This document shows, piece by piece, positions 5,137-13,597 of a stretch of DNA of 36,560 nt (its first letter is position 1; each line of letters opens with the position of its first letter). The stretch is from a virus. Below the pieces are notes generated by a model. That model did not search any database. It was not told where the DNA came from and saw nothing but the letters and a program-made list of their open reading frames with translations. The stretch covers positions 1 through 36,560 of the IMG/VR virus record IMGVR_UViG_3300036827_000356; one strand, written 5' to 3'. Both the position numbers and the translations under genes were made by a program.

Positions 5137-5838
5137 GTGAAACGCCGCCAGGTCATCATGGTCGCAGCCGCAGCGATCATCCTGAGCGTGCTCTGGTTCA
5201 CCTGCACCACCCACCGTGAGCCCCGTTACAACGGAAGATCGTTGTCCCAGTGGCTGGATCTTTGCGCTGGGAGGTCGGAAGCGTCCCAAGAGGCTGCCGA
5301 TGCAGTCCGCCACATCGGAACGAACGCCGTGCCTTTCCTCGTTACCTGGACTCAACAAACCCAAGGTTTGACACCTTGGAAGCAGCGCTTCTTGGTAAAG
5401 GTCTTGAGTTGGAAATCTGGGGCGCCGGGCAAGGAATTGCTGCTGAAATTGATCACCGCCCGACAGCCTCAGGAATGGCGTGCCGCCTGTGGCTTTGCAA
5501 TTTTGGGCGAGACTGCTCGAGCTGCCGCTCCGGACTTGGCGCGCGTCGCGACTCATGGAGACGCCGCTAGTGCAGATCTCGCAATCAACGCCCTCACGCT
5601 CCTTGGGAGAGACGGTCTCGAGTCCCTGTTCTCGGTCATCACAAACACCGCTGCCCCACAACGAACCAGAATCGTAGGGATGGATTCGCTCAGGCATGTC
5701 GTTCCAAGTGCCCGGGCAGCCTTCGTTCCCGAGCTTACCAAACTGCTGAGCGACCAGGACGCTTTTGTCCGAAGCCAAGCGACAAACGCCATTAATGCTA
5801 TCGCACCTGAAGTGCTGCAACAAAGCTCGTTTCCGTGA
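5137..5838 (+). CDS. Membrane-anchored HEAT-like repeat protein
   Basis: A 233-aa protein with an N-terminal hydrophobic anchor (VIMVAAAAIILSVLWFTC, with a cysteine that could be lipidated) followed by YNGRSLSQWLDL and helical repeat units: ASQEAADAVRHIGTNAVPFLVTW, CGFAILGETARAAAPDLARV, LAINALTLLGRDGLESLFSVI, HVVPSARAAFVPELTKLLSDQD. These are HEAT/armadillo-like scaffolding repeats. It runs against the head-gene operon, with its own promoter. A paralogue with the same motifs lies at 14816. It has no phage function I know of, and is best read as host-type cargo or a moron gene. Confidence 0.75.
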   Translation: MKRRQVIMVAAAAIILSVLWFTCTTHREPRYNGRSLSQWLDLCAGRSEASQEAADAVRHIGTNAVPFLVTWTQQTQGLTPWKQRFLVKVLSWKSGAPGKELLLKLITARQPQEWRAACGFAILGETARAAAPDLARVATHGDAASADLAINALTLLGRDGLESLFSVITNTAAPQRTRIVGMDSLRHVVPSARAAFVPELTKLLSDQDAFVRSQATNAINAIAPEVLQQSSFP

Positions 5839-5861
5839 CCATTGGTAGCTCGTAAGCATAG

Positions 5862-7148
5862 TCACACAATTATTCCTGGCCTCCGACTTCGGGTTTCGGA
5901 TTTCGGTCTTCGGGTTTCGGATTTACGGCGTCTGCCGCCTGCATCGCACCCGGCACATACCCCTTGTCCCCCCAAGGCAACTGCTTTAAACCCAAGGTCA
6001 AAAGCCCGGTTCAATTCATTGAACGGAATCCCCATGTCAAAACCAGTCCGCGCCGCAGCCAGCCGGTCGCGCCTGGCCGCCGCCATGACTGGATGGTCCT
6101 CCGGGTCAAACCAACCGTCCGCCTTCGGGTCAATGGCCTTGACGGTCACATCGTCCTCCGCCTCCAGCCGCCGGCACAAAGGCACCACCCGGTTCTCAAT
6201 GAAGTTGAGCCGCGCGCCCGACATCACGTCATACTTCGCCGCGTTCGTGGTCGTGATGATTTCCTCCGGCACTCCGAACGCCGCGCAAATCTCCGTGCAG
6301 GAAAACTTCCGATTCGCCAAAAACTGCAAGTCACTGCTCGCAAGCTTCGGCGTCACCACCTCCGCCCCGCCCCAAAGCAGCACCGGCCGGTCCGCCGTGC
6401 CGGCGTGCCGCTTGCGCTCGCGCAAGGCAGCCAGGATTTGCTCCCGCTGCTCCGGGTCAAGCTGCTCGCTCGTTCGCAGAATCGTGCCGGCATCGCCGTT
6501 ATTCTCCATGATGCCCTTCATGAAGAGCGAAGCCGCGTAATCAGTTCCGGCGGCAGTCGCAGCGACCGCCAGCGGCGCCATGCCGCGCCAAAAGTCGAAC
6601 GGATTGGGCAACCTCTCATGCCACACCTCCTCCGGCAGGAATACCTGGCTGGACAGCGGACTGTTCCGGGCATAATCGATATACCGCCAGCCCATCAGTC
6701 GATTGTCCTCGACGATATGCTGGAACCGCGCCGGATCTAGGATGAGCACCGCCTTCAGTGCCGGTCGGCCGGACACTGAATCAAAAATCGGCACTCGGAA
6801 ACATTCCCCTCGCAGCATCAGCCAGATGACCCGCAGCTCCCAATACTGAAACCGGTTCATATACGGATGCGGCCGATTGTAAAAGTCCACCAGCGGCCCG
6901 GTCGTGATGAGTTTCTCACCCTCAGAACTCGTGGTGGAGAACCGGAAAGGAATATTCGAAACCTGCTCCGCCAGCGCATTGATGGCGCGATACACCCACA
7001 CCACCTGCTGATAAGCATTCGACAGCACCGTCCCATTCGCTACGTCGTCCGGCCAGACGGCCGCCGACAGCGGATACTGCGTCGCGTCCTTCACCTCCGC
7101 ACGCGGAGCCCCTCGGTGAATCGAAATGTTGAACCCAAAGATTTTCAT
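5862..7148 (-). CDS. Phage portal protein, HK97 family
   Basis: A 428-aa portal that would form the DNA-entry ring of the head. Family features: VYRAINALAEQVSNIPFRF near the N-terminus, PHPYMNRFQYWELRVIWLMLRGECFR, VLILDPARFQHIVE, the WRGMAPLAVAATAAGTDYAASLFMKGIMENNGDAG region (clip and stem), and IPEEIITTTNAAKY-type motif near the end. The last 35 residues are low complexity (SETRRPKSETRSRRP), encoded by a degenerate direct repeat of TTCGGGTTTCGGATT at about 5888-5923, so the C-terminus is probably extended by repeat DNA. Fragments of a second portal of the same type lie at 35488. Confidence 0.88.
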   Translation of the reverse strand: MKIFGFNISIHRGAPRAEVKDATQYPLSAAVWPDDVANGTVLSNAYQQVVWVYRAINALAEQVSNIPFRFSTTSSEGEKLITTGPLVDFYNRPHPYMNRFQYWELRVIWLMLRGECFRVPIFDSVSGRPALKAVLILDPARFQHIVEDNRLMGWRYIDYARNSPLSSQVFLPEEVWHERLPNPFDFWRGMAPLAVAATAAGTDYAASLFMKGIMENNGDAGTILRTSEQLDPEQREQILAALRERKRHAGTADRPVLLWGGAEVVTPKLASSDLQFLANRKFSCTEICAAFGVPEEIITTTNAAKYDVMSGARLNFIENRVVPLCRRLEAEDDVTVKAIDPKADGWFDPEDHPVMAAARRDRLAAARTGFDMGIPFNELNRAFDLGFKAVALGGQGVCAGCDAGGRRRKSETRRPKSETRSRRPGIIV

Positions 7149-7212: not shown

Positions 7213-8643
7213 TCACAAACCTTTAACCCTCCCATGAATCAGCGCCCGCTCCTGCGCGATCGTCCGTCCATCCGGCAGCACCTCACCGCGCTTGAGCCGC
7301 TCCAGCATGCTGTCACGGCTAATTGCACCAGCACGCCAGGCCGCAACTACCGCGGTAATCTCCTCGCCCGACATGGCGCACGCGCCCAGGTCAGTGTTCA
7401 TCGCGAAACTCACCTGGCCGGCGATCGCATCCAGGTCCCCGCCCTGAATCCACCACTGAGCAAACTGCAGCACGCGCGACAGCGAACGATTCAAACTCTC
7501 CACAATCGCCCCCAGCCCACACAGCTCCCCTCCCACGCCTGTCGCGGCCGTCAGGCCGGTGGCCCCCACGCCAGTGGATTCCAACATCCGGGCGCCGAGC
7601 AGGGCCATCCTGCGCTCCACCTTCTCCATCGCCCTTTCCAAATGCGCCAGGCCCGCACCAGTGAACTCAAGGAATCCAGCCGAGGCACCAGGCACCTCCG
7701 AAACCCAAGCTGCACTTGAACCGATGCGCAACGGCGCCGCCTTATCGAACCCACTCACCCAAGCAGTCGGCAACGCCGCGAAATGCAGCCCGTGCTTGTA
7801 GTCAGCATCCAGCCGGTAATGGTCCAGGTTCGCGGCGATGATATCCGCCAACGGCAACTTGCCTCGCTCAGGCAGCGAACCCTTCGGCCCATGAAACACA
7901 AACGGAATGAAATCCAGCGCAACCCCATCGCGCTTCAGGATGACACTCTCATCCAGCACCCACGCGCCGCTTGCCGCGCCGGAGCCATCAGGCGAAGCCA
8001 GGTCGCCGCGCTTCCAAACCTCCATCACACACGCGCGAGCCCCATCGGTCCTATCCGTCCTATTGGTCCTCTCCAACCCAAGCACGCGCAACCCGTCCGC
8101 TTCACGCAGCACCACCTCCGTCAACACGACCTCTTGCCCAATCCGCTCGACAGTCCAGTCCAGCACGTCCTCCGCCCGGAAGAACGAAACGCACGGCCGA
8201 CTCGAAGTACTGTCCTGCAGCACCAGCGAACCACCACGTCCCACGGATAACACCTCACTCACCACGCCCCGCGCATACGCAACAAACTCAGTCCCCCACC
8301 GTTCGCAATCAGCCACAAACTTCTCCAACCCACCAGCGGGCCTGCCCGCCGTAGCGCCAAGCGCCAACCCACCAGTGGGCCTGCCCACCGTAGCGCAGAG
8401 CGCGAAGGTGGGCGCCCGTCGAAACACCAAATCCAAATACTCCTCCAACGTCCGCGCAGTCGCGCCAAAGAACGAAGCACGCGCCTTGTAAGCTCCATAC
8501 TCCTCGTCACTCTGCGAATCCAACCGCGGCAGATACTTCGCCCCCGCCGCCTTCACCGCATCCTCGCCCGCCAACACATCCCTCGCCCGCGCCCATTCCC
8601 CCGCGCTCGAATCGTATTCCCGATGAGTCCCACCTACGGCCAT
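7213..8643 (-). CDS. DUF4055 phage structural protein (portal-like)
   Basis: A 476-aa protein whose N-terminus (HREYDSSAGEWARARDVLAGEDAVKAAGAKYLPRLDSQSDEEYGAYKARASFFGATARTLEEYLDLVFRR) fits the DUF4055 family, usually found at the portal position next to terminase in tailed phages. The C-terminal VSFAMNTDLGACAMSGEEITAVVAAWRAGAISRDSMLERLKRGEVLPDGRT is also typical. It lies immediately upstream of a separate HK97 portal, so the element has two portal-like proteins. Three repeat insertions are readable in it: a 13-aa tandem repeat (ALCATVGRPTGGL / ALGATAGRPAGGL), a GSGAASG insertion, and a mini-hairpin at 7546. Confidence 0.82.
   Translation of the reverse strand: MAVGGTHREYDSSAGEWARARDVLAGEDAVKAAGAKYLPRLDSQSDEEYGAYKARASFFGATARTLEEYLDLVFRRAPTFALCATVGRPTGGLALGATAGRPAGGLEKFVADCERWGTEFVAYARGVVSEVLSVGRGGSLVLQDSTSSRPCVSFFRAEDVLDWTVERIGQEVVLTEVVLREADGLRVLGLERTNRTDRTDGARACVMEVWKRGDLASPDGSGAASGAWVLDESVILKRDGVALDFIPFVFHGPKGSLPERGKLPLADIIAANLDHYRLDADYKHGLHFAALPTAWVSGFDKAAPLRIGSSAAWVSEVPGASAGFLEFTGAGLAHLERAMEKVERRMALLGARMLESTGVGATGLTAATGVGGELCGLGAIVESLNRSLSRVLQFAQWWIQGGDLDAIAGQVSFAMNTDLGACAMSGEEITAVVAAWRAGAISRDSMLERLKRGEVLPDGRTIAQERALIHGRVKGL
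7546..7577 (+). repeat. Mini-hairpin element, two-stem copy in DUF4055 gene
   Basis: GGCC-GTCA-GGCC hairpin, then GGTGGCC, then CCAC-GCCA-GTGG hairpin. It encodes a Gly/Ala/Thr-rich stretch (TGVGATGLTAATG) on the - strand. The second stem differs from every other copy but still pairs perfectly. Confidence 0.6.
7970..7993 (+). repeat. Short dispersed repeat inside DUF4055 gene (copy 2 of GSGAASG repeat)
   Basis: Shares its first 17 bases with 4632-4648 in the protease gene and encodes the same GSGAASG peptide in the same frame. It falls in a variable loop of the DUF4055 protein (ASPDGSGAASGAWV). Confidence 0.6.
8327..8415 (+). repeat. Tandem 39-bp repeat encoding a 13-aa repeat, with covarying stems
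   Basis: Two units start at 8327 and 8366 (AACCCACCAG...). Unit 1 contains GCGGG-CCTG-CCCGC and unit 2 GTGGG-CCTG-CCCAC: a C-G to T-A double change that keeps the stem. Unit 2 continues into a larger palindrome GCCCACC...GGTGGGC (about 8384-8414) whose loop has the GTAGC...GCGAA layout shared with 19218-19243. The period of 39 keeps the DUF4055 frame. Confidence 0.7.
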
Positions 8644-8856: not shown

Positions 8857-9648
8857 ATGAGAAAACGGCATGTCGAAAAGGCCTTCACCCTAATCGAGCT
8901 ACTGGTGGTGATCGCCATCGTTGGCATTTTGGCGGGGCTACTTATACCAGCAGTCGCGTACGGGAAGTTCAGAGCGCGCGTGACCACCTGTACCAACAAT
9001 TACAGGCAACTCGCACTGGCCGCCGCAATGTACGCAGGCGATGATTCGAAGGGTCGACTACCATCGTTTGCGGTTCCCAGCTCTAAACTAATGAGCTTTC
9101 GCAATCTATACCCATGGATCATTGCGTTACCTACCTTCAAGGCAATGGAGACCCACGGGATAACACAGCCGCAGATATGGTTTTGCCCTCTGCATAATAG
9201 ATGGCAAGCCGCTTTGGAAATGTTCCAATGGAAGTTTGGGAGACCGTTGGCTACGATTGACGATCTCGGCAAATACTACATCGACACACAAGGGTGGAAC
9301 TATGCTGGCGTAGACATGAACTGGTGGGTGCCGCGGCAGTTGGAACGCTTCCCTGGCCTGACCTACCCTGATGCTTCCCTTCCCACTAGCCGTTTGAAAA
9401 CACCGTGGCCATCTAAAATGGACGATCTCACTATTTCGACCCGACCAATCGTCTCCGACTGGGCAGATGGCGAAAAAGAGACCTCAGGAGACTCCTTTTC
9501 CAGAGCTAGTGGTGGGCATACCTTCGCGGGCAAGCTCCGAAACGCCAATTCCGGATATGCGGACGGCCACGTGGAAACCCAATCTGCTAACCGCATGAAA
9601 TGGGAACTCAAACTTATCAACGGTGACGATTCTTATATTTTCTACTGA
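8857..9648 (+). CDS. Prepilin-type pseudopilin-like protein (type II secretion style)
   Basis: A 263-aa protein with a class III prepilin signal: basic RKRHVEKA, then FTLIELLVVIAIVGILAGLLIPAV, with the expected Phe+1 and Glu+5. The processed domain ends with SGYADGHVETQ, the DG motif of the large Verrucomicrobiota/Planctomycetota family of H-X9-DG pseudopilin-like proteins. It would be cleaved by a prepilin peptidase and sit in the inner membrane or periplasm. Start at ATG 8857, or GTG 8854. It runs opposite to the phage genes and has lower GC than its neighbours, suggesting separately acquired cargo. Its function is unknown. Confidence 0.8.
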   Translation: MRKRHVEKAFTLIELLVVIAIVGILAGLLIPAVAYGKFRARVTTCTNNYRQLALAAAMYAGDDSKGRLPSFAVPSSKLMSFRNLYPWIIALPTFKAMETHGITQPQIWFCPLHNRWQAALEMFQWKFGRPLATIDDLGKYYIDTQGWNYAGVDMNWWVPRQLERFPGLTYPDASLPTSRLKTPWPSKMDDLTISTRPIVSDWADGEKETSGDSFSRASGGHTFAGKLRNANSGYADGHVETQSANRMKWELKLINGDDSYIFY

Positions 9649-9946
9649 TCCCCACACCGCGCCCCGGAACCTACGCGCCCCCAGAACGAACACGCTCCCG
9701 CTTCGCGCCATTGATACGCCTTACCAATTCCAACCTCCGCTCCGCACCCATCGTGCCATGCTGACGCCTGTCCCGCTGACTGCTTCCGCTCATTCCAATT
9801 CGAACGTCCCTCGCTTCGCCAATTCGAACGCCCGTTTCCGCGTCCTGGCTTTTTGTGCACGTTCGAACGTCCTTGCCGCTCCGGGCCTCGCTGCCCTTCG
9901 GGTGCGCACCATCGGCTAACGCCTCGGTGCGCAGGCTCCGCTAACA

Positions 9947-10061
9947 CCCCCCTCCCCCAATTTTTTGTGCTTCGCAACAGGTTAACTTCGCGCTAACGCG
10001 CGGGGGAGGGGGGCTCGCTGCGCCCAGCTAACCGGCCCGTCGCTCCCCCTCCCCCAATTTT
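9947..10061. repeat. Direct and inverted poly-pyrimidine tracts
   Basis: CCCCCTCCCCCAATTTT occurs at 9948-9964 and 10045-10061. Between them lies the inverse purine tract GGGGGAGGGGGG at 10002-10013, so the tracts can pair or form G-rich structures. Each pyrimidine copy is followed by a T run and preceded by CTAAC-type sequence (GCTAACAC, CAGCTAACC). Confidence 0.55.
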
Positions 10062-10216
10062 CGCGGCCGACGATAATATCAGCTCGCTCCGCTCGAAGAA
10101 CCGATGGATAGAACGCTCCGCTCTCGCTCCGCTACGGCGCGCTGACGCGCGCCCGCCAACAGCCTATCGAGCCGCCGGTGCTTACGGCGCACACAACGCG
10201 CGCCTCCAACACCAGC

Positions 10217-10248
10217 GGGCAAGGCGCCCGGTGGCCGTGCGCCAGCAC
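10217..10248 (+). repeat. Mini-hairpin element, two-stem copy
   Basis: GGGC-AAGGC-GCCC, GGTGGCC, then GTGC-GCCA-GCAC. The second stem carries a C-to-G change balanced by G-to-C relative to the common GTCC/GGAC. Confidence 0.65.
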
Positions 10249-10294
10249 CCTTAACAGCCCGGCAAGAGTCGCGCCTTTCACTCGGCCGTCGCTC

Positions 10295-10313
10295 GATGGC
10301 TGTCCGCCAGGAC
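10295..10313 (+). repeat. Mini-hairpin element, single-stem copy
   Basis: GATGGCT followed by GTCC-GCCA-GGAC. Intergenic. The 5' box departs from GGTGGCC at two positions while the stem and loop are standard. Confidence 0.55.
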
Positions 10314-10586
10314 CTCGCTAGGCCGTGCCTGGTGGCACCGTGAAAGTCGCGACCCTTGCCGGAGGTAAAACGCTGACTTGCTGGCTTTCCCTCCGCTCCA
10401 CATCGCTCCACTCCGCAGCAGCCGACGAAACAGCGCCGCCGGCTCGCTGCTGCGTTGCACTCTGTTTCGCTTCAGGAGACCGTCAAGACAGCGAGAAGCA
10501 AGACCGGCGCGAGAGCAGCCAGCTTTTGTTCCTGTCTACCTCCCACCGACTCCGGTCACAAAATAGAAACGGTCAGGACCTCCGCT

Positions 10587-10605
10587 GGTGGCCGTCCGCC
10601 AGGAC
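10587..10605 (+). repeat. Mini-hairpin element, consensus copy
   Basis: GGTGGCC followed by GTCC-GCCA-GGAC: the commonest form. Intergenic. Confidence 0.65.
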
Positions 10606-10745
10606 CAAAATCTGGCTGCACTCGCGCCTAAAAAGCTAATCAGCCAGGCCCATGGCGCAAAGGGGCCTCCGCTCACCCCGACACCCTTTCGCTGCGGCCA
10701 CTTTGCACCATGCGCCTGGACAGGAACCCGAGGACCCGCGCGCAT

Positions 10746-10764
10746 AGTGGCCGTCTGCCAAGAC
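10746..10764 (+). repeat. Mini-hairpin element, variant stem
   Basis: AGTGGCC followed by GTCT-GCCA-AGAC. The C-G pair next to the loop in the common form is a T-A pair here, a double change that keeps pairing. Confidence 0.65.
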
Positions 10765-10785
10765 TCGCTCCGTTCGGGACCGTCA

Positions 10786-11030
10786 TGAAGGATGCTTCCG
10801 GCTTCCAGACACAAGAGCTGTTATACTCAAAGCCGCCCCAATGCCGTATCCCGCTGAACGCGGGAACCCTCGGCATTTGGTCCCCGCCGCCTCACCGATC
10901 GGCGGCCCGGTTCATTGAGTATAACAGCGTCTTGTGTCCAGAGAGCCTGTCGGGACTGTCACGCTGCCTGCTAAATCCGGCCCCCGCCTCGGCCGGGCAG
11001 GCATCGCGCCAGTCCCTCCCGCATCCTTCA
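10786..11030. ncRNA. Nested inverted-repeat structure, candidate structured RNA or DNA element
   Basis: The outermost arms are TGAAGGATGC (10786-10795) and GCATCCTTCA (11021-11030). Inside is a 23-bp pair at 10808-10830 and 10915-10938 (GACACAAGA-GCTGTTATACTCAA against its complement, one extra base in the right arm). Enclosed are two hairpins: AATGCCG/CGGCATT (10840/10871) with inner TCCCGC/GCGGGA, and GCCGCC/GGCGGC (10886/10901). A second GCCGCC at 10832 could compete for the same partner. To the right GCCTGC/GCAGGC (10966/10997) encloses CCGGCC/GGCCGG (10977/10991). Strand and function are unknown: it could be a small RNA, a replication or packaging site, or a MITE-like insertion. Confidence 0.5.
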
Positions 11031-11250
11031 CGCCAGTTTATCCGCCATAGCCTCCGCCGGGCGAATAGTTAGCTCACGCAGAAAAGTTTGGCGGAGGCGT
11101 CGGCGGAACCCTCACTCCGCTTCCGGATCTTTGATCAGGCGCGGGAAAAGAAAAGGAAACAGCCACGGCTCGCTCCGCTCGCCACCACTTGCACTTACCC
11201 CCATCAAGGTCCAATATAGGAAACAGCTGCATGATAAACGTTAGCCAGTC

Positions 11251-11511
11251 ATGAACCGCGGCGCAGGATTACCACGCGGACTCGCGAACCTCGGTGACAC
11301 CGTCCGAGTGCTCGATGGAGATGGCACGGACTTAGGCCCGATGATTGTGGCACAAGCACAGAAACTCGCCTCCGACCAGGTTGCAGAGCTCTTTGTCACC
11401 GAACCCACAGCCACACCCCCTGTCGTCCGCATCGTCCACCTTCGCAAGCTTCAGGATCTTTTTAAGAAAGAGTTTGGTGGGCATCACTATACCCCCCTCA
11501 ACTTCCTCTGA
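11251..11511 (+). CDS. Stand-alone IF-3 N-terminal-domain-like protein
   Basis: An 86-aa protein. Residues 16-72 match the layout of the translation initiation factor IF-3 N-terminal domain: VRVLDGDGTDLGPM (family VRLIDEDGEQLG), AQAQKLASDQVAELFVTEP (EALKLAEEAGLDLVEISP), TATPPVVRIVHLRKLQDLFKKE (PPVCRIMDYGKYKYE). The C-terminal 30S-binding domain of IF-3 is absent and the protein simply stops. Normal IF-3 is about 170-180 aa. It could bind the ribosome or compete with IF-3, which is inference. It is on the + strand within a - strand phage operon, and its last 25 bp overlap the end of the terminase gene convergently. No ribosome site is evident before ATG 11251. Confidence 0.7.
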   Translation: MNRGAGLPRGLANLGDTVRVLDGDGTDLGPMIVAQAQKLASDQVAELFVTEPTATPPVVRIVHLRKLQDLFKKEFGGHHYTPLNFL

Positions 11512-12869
11512 GTAATCGAGCGCGCTCGCGTCGCCACCAAATACCGCAGCGCATCCGCCGCATCGTCTCCACCAACACCATCCTCGTCGCAATCCACCTT
11601 CAACACGTCCTCCGGCCGATGCGGATCATGCTGCATCGTCGGCAGCGTCTCCACCAGCCGCCCGCACCGTTGGTGAATAAACAAACTAGGCAAAATTTTC
11701 GCACTACCATCACCCAACCGTTGCAAGATTTCGGCCCAACCGTTAACACGGTCCATATTCGCAGGCCGCAATTTGATTCCTTCGCGCAAATACTGCCCCG
11801 CAATCGTCGTCCCATCCGCTTGCCGACTAAACACATCCGTACCTGCCACGAACCGCCGAAGCTGGCTCACCTCCAGCCCGTGTCGGCCCAGCATCGCTTT
11901 GACACCGGCACCATGCCGTTGCGGTAACCACATCCGCTCCGCGTGCTCATCCACAACAAACACGTTTCCGTCTCCATCGGTGCACCCCAGCAGCACAACC
12001 GTGTAGTGAGCAAAACCATAATCCAACGCGCAGAACCATTCCCGCGCCCGCGTCTCATCGAAATCGGCGACGATATGGACATCGCGCCGGAACGTCGTGA
12101 AGAACTGACCTGCGGCCAGGTCCCAATCACCATCCAACCAGGCCCGACGCTGCCACCCCGTCAGACTCTCCAGGACCCGCTGATACTCCGGGTTATTAAA
12201 CGCGTTATCACTCACCCGCGCCGGCACGAACCTCGTCTCGCACTCCCGTTTCTCCAAAAATGGACCAACGAACCTTGTCCGATACCACGCATGTCCAATC
12301 CCGCCAGGATTGCTCGTTGAATAAATCCGTGGCCGCCAATTCGGTTTCGACGTTCGACAACACGTTGTGATGTCCTGATGCTTCCGGCTCGAAAGCGTCG
12401 TCGCCTCCTCGATTCCAATCACGTCGTACTCCAGGCCCAGGTAGGCGTCGATATCCTTCTCCGCTTGAAAATGCCCCGCAATAATCCGCGACCCGTTTCC
12501 GAAAGTGAGCACGCCGCGATAAGCCGAGAACTCATGCGCCAGCCCGGTGAAGATGCGGCGCCGCAGGTCCTCGAAGTGCTCCATGTTGGCTTTGCCAATC
12601 TTTCGCAACAACAAACACTTCAGCCCCGGCACACGCTGACAATCATCCGCCCCCATCTGCGCCAGGAGCCAATGGCTCTTGCCACCACCACGGGCCCCGC
12701 CGTAGCCAACTGCTGTCGGCCCGTCGCCCTGGTCACAGAGCCTTGCGGCGGCTGACGCCGCGAGCTGCCGCTCCTGCAGGATGACCCCAGCCCGCACGAA
12801 CTTGTCCATCTGCTCCGCCGGGCACCCTGCCGCCCGGCCCACCGCAATATATCGCTCCAGCTCAGTCAC
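11487..12869 (-). CDS. terL: Terminase large subunit
   Basis: A 460-aa DNA-packaging motor. The ATPase domain has Walker A GGARGGGKS (57-65), a Walker B-like YDVIGIEEAT (148-157) and STSNPGG after it (sensor/coupling region). The nuclease domain has D283 in ALDYGFAHYTVVLLGC, VVDEH at 305-309, and the late acidic motif GGDDAADALRYLV (433-445). All three metal-binding acidic positions therefore look present. It starts inside the small terminase gene by a 4-bp ATGA-type overlap, implying translational coupling. The family call is firm. Confidence 0.93.
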   Translation of the reverse strand: MTELERYIAVGRAAGCPAEQMDKFVRAGVILQERQLAASAAARLCDQGDGPTAVGYGGARGGGKSHWLLAQMGADDCQRVPGLKCLLLRKIGKANMEHFEDLRRRIFTGLAHEFSAYRGVLTFGNGSRIIAGHFQAEKDIDAYLGLEYDVIGIEEATTLSSRKHQDITTCCRTSKPNWRPRIYSTSNPGGIGHAWYRTRFVGPFLEKRECETRFVPARVSDNAFNNPEYQRVLESLTGWQRRAWLDGDWDLAAGQFFTTFRRDVHIVADFDETRAREWFCALDYGFAHYTVVLLGCTDGDGNVFVVDEHAERMWLPQRHGAGVKAMLGRHGLEVSQLRRFVAGTDVFSRQADGTTIAGQYLREGIKLRPANMDRVNGWAEILQRLGDGSAKILPSLFIHQRCGRLVETLPTMQHDPHRPEDVLKVDCDEDGVGGDDAADALRYLVATRARSITQRKLRGV

Positions 12870-13573
12870 GCCGCACCTCCTTGTCGCCCCGGAACCCCCA
12901 ACGAAGGCCGACGCCCGTCCCCAATCTGCACTGCCTCCACATCCAGCACTTGGCCGTCAGGCCGGTGGCCGTCCGCTAGGACCTCACCAGCCAAAGGTTG
13001 CCCATAAATCTTTTTTAGCGCCGCCTCTACTTCCACCCGAATCGGCCCGCCCTCCGCTCCGGTCACCTCCAACCGGTGGCCGACCGCCAAGTCCATCGGT
13101 TTCTCACATGCCGAGTGCCCAAGCTTGCTCGCCAGCTCGAGCAACCGGGCGTAACCCTCCAGATTCCCGCACCGCTCCGCCCGCGCCATCCAACGCTTGC
13201 GCACCTCCGCCGCAAACTCCACCAGGTTCTGCCGCTCTTGCCATTCCGCTTCGCGCAGCTCCTGATACCGCTTCGCCCAATCCACCGCTTTCACCCGCGC
13301 GATCGCCTCCGCCGCCTCGCGCTCAACCAGCGCCATATGCGCAGCATAGGCCACCAGCCGGCCTTGCCAATCCCACCGCCGGGACCATTTCTCCATCATC
13401 ACCTTGCTCCGGCCCAGCTTCGCCGCCACCCTCGCCAGCGACCGCTCCGGCCCCTGGCTCAGATAAATACTAAACGCCGCAAACGCCTTCTCGCTTTCCT
13501 TCGCTTGTCTCTCAAATGCAAGTGCCACACATACCTTTCTGTTTATTTGTCCTCTTGGTCCTATTAGTCCCAT
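12866..13573 (-). CDS. terS: Terminase small subunit (DNA-recognition)
   Basis: A 235-aa protein. Residues about 40-75 hold a helix-turn-helix (SLARVAAKLGRSKVMMEKWSRRWDWQGRLVAYAAHM), the type used by small terminases to bind the packaging site. A long helical region (EREAAEAIARVKAVDWAKRYQELREAEWQERQNLVEFAAEV) should form the oligomeric ring. Its position directly upstream of and overlapping TerL supports the call. Start ATG 13573 has GGGGTGG upstream. Near the C-terminus VLADGHRPDG is encoded by the mini-hairpin at 12952, so that tail is probably repeat-derived. A looser copy gives LAVGHRLE. Confidence 0.78.
   Translation of the reverse strand: MGLIGPRGQINRKVCVALAFERQAKESEKAFAAFSIYLSQGPERSLARVAAKLGRSKVMMEKWSRRWDWQGRLVAYAAHMALVEREAAEAIARVKAVDWAKRYQELREAEWQERQNLVEFAAEVRKRWMARAERCGNLEGYARLLELASKLGHSACEKPMDLAVGHRLEVTGAEGGPIRVEVEAALKKIYGQPLAGEVLADGHRPDGQVLDVEAVQIGDGRRPSLGVPGRQGGAA
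12952..12982 (+). repeat. Mini-hairpin element, two-stem copy in terS
   Basis: GGCC-GTCA-GGCC, GGTGGCC, then GTCC-GCTA-GGAC. In the gene it encodes VLADGH and flanking residues. It shares its whole first half with the copy at 7546. Confidence 0.7.
13075..13093 (+). repeat. Degenerate mini-hairpin element in terS
   Basis: GGTGGCC, then GACC-GCCA-AGTC. The stem keeps three pairs with one C/A mismatch beside the loop. It encodes LAVGHR, the counterpart of LADGHR at the other terS copy. Confidence 0.4.
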
Positions 13574-13597
13574 GATGTCCCACCCCAACGGCAGCGT

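Follow-up and report, generated by a model that had tools for sequence, protein, structure and literature searches.

The hairpin-rich segment at positions 10786-11030 of the virus record IMGVR_UViG_3300036827_000356 (IMG/VR; 36,560 bases, positions 1 to 36,560, analysed as a whole and hereafter called the window) is the 5′ domain of a conserved non-coding element of ~1.4 kb, situated between the genes for terminase large subunit (TerL) and portal protein and read from the minus strand, i.e., in the same direction as the terminase-portal operon. As judged from comparison of sequences, this element is very probably a structured RNA of viruses of Verrucomicrobia. Conservation of its structure, the lack of coding, its usual place in the genome and its presence in terminase-less islands are well supported, and the apparent takeover of the element by small parasitic DNA islands from this uncultured virus family suggests a role in packaging.

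Extent and Non-Coding Nature of the Element

All arms named in a preliminary description of the segment were found at the positions given there (Table 1), and its opinion that such order is unlikely to arise by chance agrees with the folding of both strands, which it had proposed as a check. The 245-nt segment reaches -136.9 kcal/mol on the plus strand and -149.4 kcal/mol on the minus strand (z -12.0 and -9.7, respectively, relative to dinucleotide shuffles), each strand thus being far more stable than shuffled sequences, none of which (0 of 200) folded as well as 10786-11030. The limits of the feature had to be moved, since structure runs past 11030 and conservation reaches ~9660; a sliding fold scan of 7-14 kb located the structured region at about 11.1-9.9 kb, with little structure in the rest of the interval. 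The gap holding the element is bordered by the TerL end at 11487 and the portal start at 8643. It had been described as a gene-free interval of 1.6 kb; the long non-coding stretch is indeed there, but a plus-strand ORF with the N-terminal domain of IF3 (IF3_N) occupies 11251-11511, so that the gene-free part starts at about 11251 and continues at least to 9660. This ORF, sitting between TerL and the RNA, encodes the N-terminal domain alone, without the C-terminal one, and no counterpart of it was found in relatives. On the other side of the gap, two adjacent minus-strand genes, 5862-7148 (phrog_12/PF04860) and 7213-8643 (phrog_145/DUF4055), both match portal families.

Table 1. Features of the element, its neighbourhood and the islands carrying it; positions refer to the window if no locus is named.
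Feature	Position	Strand	Remarks
Terminase small subunit (TerS)	12866..13588	-	phrog_6299 3e-15
TerL	11487..12869	-	phrog_2 4e-23; upstream neighbour of the element
ORF of 86 aa, IF3 N-terminal domain	11251..11511	+	PF05198, E 2.3e-9; divergent from the RNA
Conserved non-coding structured element, proposed large RNA, ~1.4 kb	about 9660..11107	-	Approximate ends; nhmmer/blastn
5′ domain (domain 1)	10780..11036	-	P1 closes a multibranch loop holding P2 and P3
P1, 5′ strand, UGGCGUGAAGGAUGC	11021..11036	-	Nearly invariant; pairs with 10780-10795
P1, 3′ strand	10780..10795	-	
P2 hairpin, core CUGGCGCG/CGUGACAG	10952..11016	-	G.A mismatch and G.U in the core
P3 long arm	10804..10942	-	30 bp, two apical hairpins
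Remaining domains	9660..10779	-	Multiple long helices, e.g., 10259-10281/10340-10362, 10506-10526/10608-10628, 9946-9958/10002-10014
Outermost arms	10786-10795/11021-11030		10 bp; extendable to 10779-10795/11021-11037
Outer stem	10808-10830/10915-10938		23 pairs, one 1-nt bulge
Side hairpin	10952-10971/10997-11016		
Inner hairpins	10837-10846/10871-10880 and 10886-10891/10901-10906		
GCCGCC copies	10832-10837 and 10886-10891		
GGCGGC	10901-10906		
Portal protein (DUF4055)	7213..8643	-	phrog_145 8e-84, PF13264; downstream neighbour of the element
p133 (DUF6573) and p185, small antisense genes	L160:6279-6680 and 5516-6073	+	Conserved in clade A phages and the tRNA-Gly island
35-kb tRNA-Gly island	L160/L165, genome G004 contig C6		Not the prophage contig; intact tRNA-Gly and a repeat of the tRNA 3′ end by the integrase
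10.5-kb tRNA-Pro island	L197, genome G616 contig C32		15-nt att repeat at both ends

Relatives were gathered by a TerL search of viral contigs. Similarity at the DNA level (nhmmer/blastn over 11036-9662) covers the element nearly throughout in L004 and partly in L007, L013, and L026. In the nearest relative, L004, identity is equally high for the element (82%) and for TerL (81%), but 20 of the 23 indels of the element are not a multiple of three and therefore break the frame, whereas TerL has no indels at all. Thus, the region is conserved without being coding; the coding explanation was rejected on this ground, and the earlier assertion that no coding accounts for the structure is borne out. 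The record of the window holds no second copy of the element, no sigma-70-like promoter was found, and terminator-like sites do not exceed chance expectation. A search for similar DNA in cultured phages found none, and their TerL relatives are at most ~31% identical among the matches listed. In L016, an isolate-derived contig of a different layout with TerL of 56% identity, the portal gene directly follows TerL with no gap, which shows that this type of motor does not always come with the element.

Secondary Structure and Compensatory Change

The arrangement of P1, P2 and P3 is kept in the 5′ domain of ten relatives, the sequence of P3 being widely divergent, and P1-type pairing of varying sequence is present in most of 26 relatives; several members of the sister clade (clade A) have an extra third arm inside P1. 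The characteristic mismatch and wobble pair of the P2 core are retained in 25 of 26 sequences. Where the preliminary description had advised looking for variation without compensation in homologous loci, the opposite was observed, with heavy compensatory change. In P3, 11 of 30 pairs have changed in a compensatory manner among four sequences. For domain 1, RNAalifold predicts 74 pairs, 37 of them compensatory (at most 29 in 300 shuffles), and a consensus energy of -135 compared with -25 to -40 for column-shuffled alignments. P2 in 26 sequences has 95.6% of cells paired; 18 cells are compensatory, compared with 4.6 after shuffling. The full-length alignment of clade A gives 118 compensatory pairs of 373 (shuffles at most 73) and an energy of -692 vs. 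about -200 after column shuffling, and in 38 copies of the 3′ domain compensatory changes concern 32 of 65 pairs (shuffles at most 27) and 179 cells (at most 79). Shuffle controls leave relatedness of the sequences in, and slide controls were also run for P2, domain 1, and clade A; since relatedness persists in shuffles, the margin together with slide and column-shuffle controls should be given more weight than any single count.

Competition of two GCCGCC copies for one GGCGGC, proposed earlier as a source of alternative folds, is possible in the sequence of the window but is not a conserved switch in relatives. As seen by inspection, GCCGCC/GGCGGC of the window corresponds to GCCGUC/GACGGC in L008 and L010. 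Since the local hairpin changes in step, its arms co-varying in relatives, one main fold fits better, and the switch was rejected as a conserved feature.

Several local peculiarities accompany this architecture. The motif GUNNUGGCNNACRGCCAY occurs four times on the minus strand (10764-10747, 10605-10588, 10313-10296, and 10248-10231), its 4-bp stem covarying between copies and its UGGC loop being able to pair with the following GCCA. Among relatives, a single copy of GUNNUGGCNNACRGCCA was detected in L004 and another in L013, with no others, which makes it lineage-specific. Minus-strand segments 10055-10043, 10013-10002, and 9958-9947 comprise a C-rich strand CCCCCCTCCCCC between two G-rich strands, and alternative pairings are possible there. 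The apex of P2 in both L007 and L013 bears an inserted short GTTGATAGTTGAGAGTTGA-like repeat common to the two.

RNA or Folded DNA

In each of the five alignments, the operon strand has the lower consensus energy. Counted on pairs predicted on both strands, G.U outnumbers A.C in domain 1 (29:7) and clade A (101:57), whereas the two are about equal in number in the 3′ domain (30:32) and the P2 alignment (10:12). Relying on these energies and counts and on the P2 core G.U retained in 25 of 26 sequences, in our judgement RNA appears to be clearly favoured over folded DNA.

Distribution and Genomic Context

The search pattern built on P1/P2 matched 11 viral contigs and, across ~85,000 species genomes, 14 contigs, 13 of which belong to Verrucomicrobiota and one (L102) is titled just “bacterium”. 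A covariance-model search, suggested in the preliminary description as a way to check the structure, was carried out with R1, the model of P1/P2 resting on the P2 alignment, and did find homologous copies in other genomes. Of 320 genomes from the order of G004, 35 contained the element according to R1, with up to seven copies each; in a set of 387 genomes taken from across the phylum, full-length matches were limited to two. Where flanks are present, the usual site is TerL-element-portal, and TerL and the RNA are often separated by p133 (DUF6573) and p185, two small antisense genes, or by one of them. Two solo copies of domain 1 lie beside cellular genes in genome G302 with their fold kept. 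The core hairpin of P2 (CUGGCGCG...GCGUGACAG) is also encountered outside the phage family in Verrucomicrobiota (L155, L156, L157, L158, and L159), forming a four-unit array in L157:8726-9045 (+).

Integrase Islands Carrying the Element

The element also occurs in several islands that have an integrase but lack terminase and portal. The best-delimited of them, L160 and L197 (Table 1), have an integrase, att repeats at a tRNA and, within the proteins tested, no terminase or virion genes, which are the features of satellites; a similar appearance is shown by L205, where the element occurs with an integrase and a primase, and by L214, where it occurs with tRNA-Pro and an integrase. The tRNA-Gly island L160 encodes primase, integrase, Wadjet JetA/C/D, Fic, SNF2/PLD helicase with a type IIG-like RM system and an HNH phosphorothioate-restriction-like gene. 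Apart from the TerL tail, protein search with ORFs of the window of at least 100 aa found no terminase or portal homologue in it. The same genome, G004, contains a prophage (L167) with the order TerS-TerL-RNA-portal, and all blocks shared (blastn) between the island and the examined prophage region fall into the RNA region and its flank. The tRNA-Pro island L197 consists of integrase, two unknown ORFs (402 and 596 aa), the whole element of ~1.47 kb, and Fic; neither terminase nor portal was detected there with TerS, TerL, and two portal proteins as the probes. Its RNA is 92% identical over 144 nt to that of the co-resident prophage (L198, G616).

Both L160 and L197 thus come from genomes that also hold a TerL-positive prophage, these putative helper-satellite pairs being based on metagenome bins. 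In both islands only the last ~63 nt of TerL is retained along with the element, and similar foreign upstream sequence is fused to it. Owing to this common junction, the two were counted as one capture event, and two independent captures were rejected; probably, a single capture was followed by spread with different integrases. A second, partial copy of the element is present in some islands and phages.

Relation to Known RNAs and Satellites

Neither the window nor nine related loci gave a gathering match in Rfam 15, where only sub-threshold miRNA-like chance hits appeared; there is likewise no match to GOLLD (RF02032) or ROOL (RF03087), the region 9400-11500 of the window giving none up to E 5. 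The element was therefore not filed under any family. It has the conserved structure, compensatory changes and non-coding nature of large structured phage ncRNAs as a kind, not as a family, and is best read as a new class within this kind, similar to GOLLD and ROOL in this sense only. GOLLD RNAs exceed 800 nt, are ornate, reside in phages and prophages, are expressed around lysis and have no known function (PMC12286853). The element resembles them in size, ornateness, phage location and unknown function, and differs by its place between TerL and portal, with no tRNA association seen, by Verrucomicrobiota hosts, and by occurrence in terminase-less islands. ROOL is also a large multi-helix phage RNA of unknown function (PMC12286853), but the element is about twice as long as the solved ROOL (659 nt) and has another place and other hosts. 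ICP1 with its ~800-nt ncRNA and PLE with its IIR transcript provide abundant large ncRNAs in ORF-less gaps of a phage and its satellite (PMC7567579); as described, they differ from our case in that phage and satellite use different transcripts there, while the same RNA is carried by both here. Satellites are established to carry packaging sites of their helpers (PMC6092414). The region common to a prophage and an integrase island without virion genes is reminiscent of PICI/P4-type satellites (PMC6092414), although the shared region here is a long covarying structure instead of their cos or pac.

An RNA acting at the terminase-portal motor would have a functional analogue in pRNA of phage phi29. 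The latter is less than 200 nt long, i.e., far shorter than the element, which has no Rfam match, and the parallel concerns function only, the packaging role of the element being a proposal.

Proposed Role and Alternatives

Of the options listed in the preliminary description, structured RNA is strongly supported by the comparative data and a replication origin has gained no support. As to the packaging site, packaging, possibly blended with an RNA function, appears to be the likeliest role, while a site made of DNA only is kept as a rival. It is the place between two packaging genes and the retention of the segment by integrase islands without terminase that point to packaging, and we tentatively suggest, a little short of an even chance, that the RNA takes part in it. 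It would be transcribed from the operon strand during the lytic programme and fold into a large molecule whose 5′ hub is the P1/P2/P3 domain; this RNA may help the terminase-portal motor to select or load DNA. In the cis mode, the nascent transcript or its DNA would mark the start of packaging; alternatively, the RNA may serve as a cofactor of the motor. Islands retaining the stretch that begins with the TerL tail and ends with the RNA could then be packaged by a helper phage. The reading as a whole, a structured RNA of a temperate Verrucomicrobiota phage family, transcribed lytically and helping the motor, seems to us evenly balanced between being right and wrong.

The strongest competitor, though unlikely, is a giant RNA acting in trans in the manner of GOLLD and ROOL, which would be abundant late in infection and would assemble into a particle or bind host machinery such as ribosomes, with no link to packaging and with benefit for the islands. 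Size, complexity and phage or prophage location correspond to GOLLD and ROOL (PMC12286853), ICP1 and PLE satellites both possess abundant large ncRNAs in ORF-less gaps (PMC7567579), and in the window an IF3_N protein is encoded beside the element. However, that ORF was not found in relatives, the usual position is between terminase and portal and not near tRNAs, and the islands keep the TerL tail, with no other phage gene among those tested in L197, which looks more like a captured packaging segment. Somewhat less probable still is a cis-acting DNA site (pac/cos) with extruded hairpins recognised by terminase in place of RNA. The vicinity of TerL and the capture by terminase-less islands would suit it, the strand test is neutral in the 3′ domain, and the second partial copy in some islands and phages recalls satellites known to have two cos sites (PMC6092414). 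Against it, the P2 G.U and the exchange of G-U, A-U, and G-C in P1 favour RNA of the operon strand, and 1.4 kb of covarying structure goes far beyond known pac/cos sites. To our knowledge, all such sites are far smaller.

It is improbable that the element is a long regulatory leader, an attenuator or processing hub setting expression of portal and downstream head genes relative to terminase: it does precede portal on the same strand in most members, yet it is kept in islands without portal, its solo domain-1 copies by cellular genes retain the fold, and it far exceeds in size any leader known to us. A mobile MITE/REP-like inverted repeat or a pile-up of such repeats, the MITE-like option raised at the outset, was rejected as the main explanation and is very improbable despite the recurrence of the P2 core hairpin alone or as an array elsewhere in Verrucomicrobiota and the solo copies in G302, since instead of a short sequence with terminal inverted repeats and many scattered copies we see ~1.4 kb at one usual syntenic site, a single copy in the record, compensatory evolution and co-inheritance with TerL and portal.

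Biological Significance

GOLLD and ROOL remain large phage RNAs without known function, and the family described here offers a clue that they lack: it lies between two packaging genes, and it is the part of the phage that islands without terminase acquired, which makes its function directly testable. In the boldest version, which we hold to be rather doubtful, the giant RNA of ~1.4 kb would be a packaging address or motor cofactor, transcribed where packaging starts and allowing the phage motor to recognise DNA, and satellites, including the 35-kb defence island, would be mobilised through the same RNA; a giant RNA would thereby be linked to mobilisation of satellites and defence islands in an under-studied phylum.
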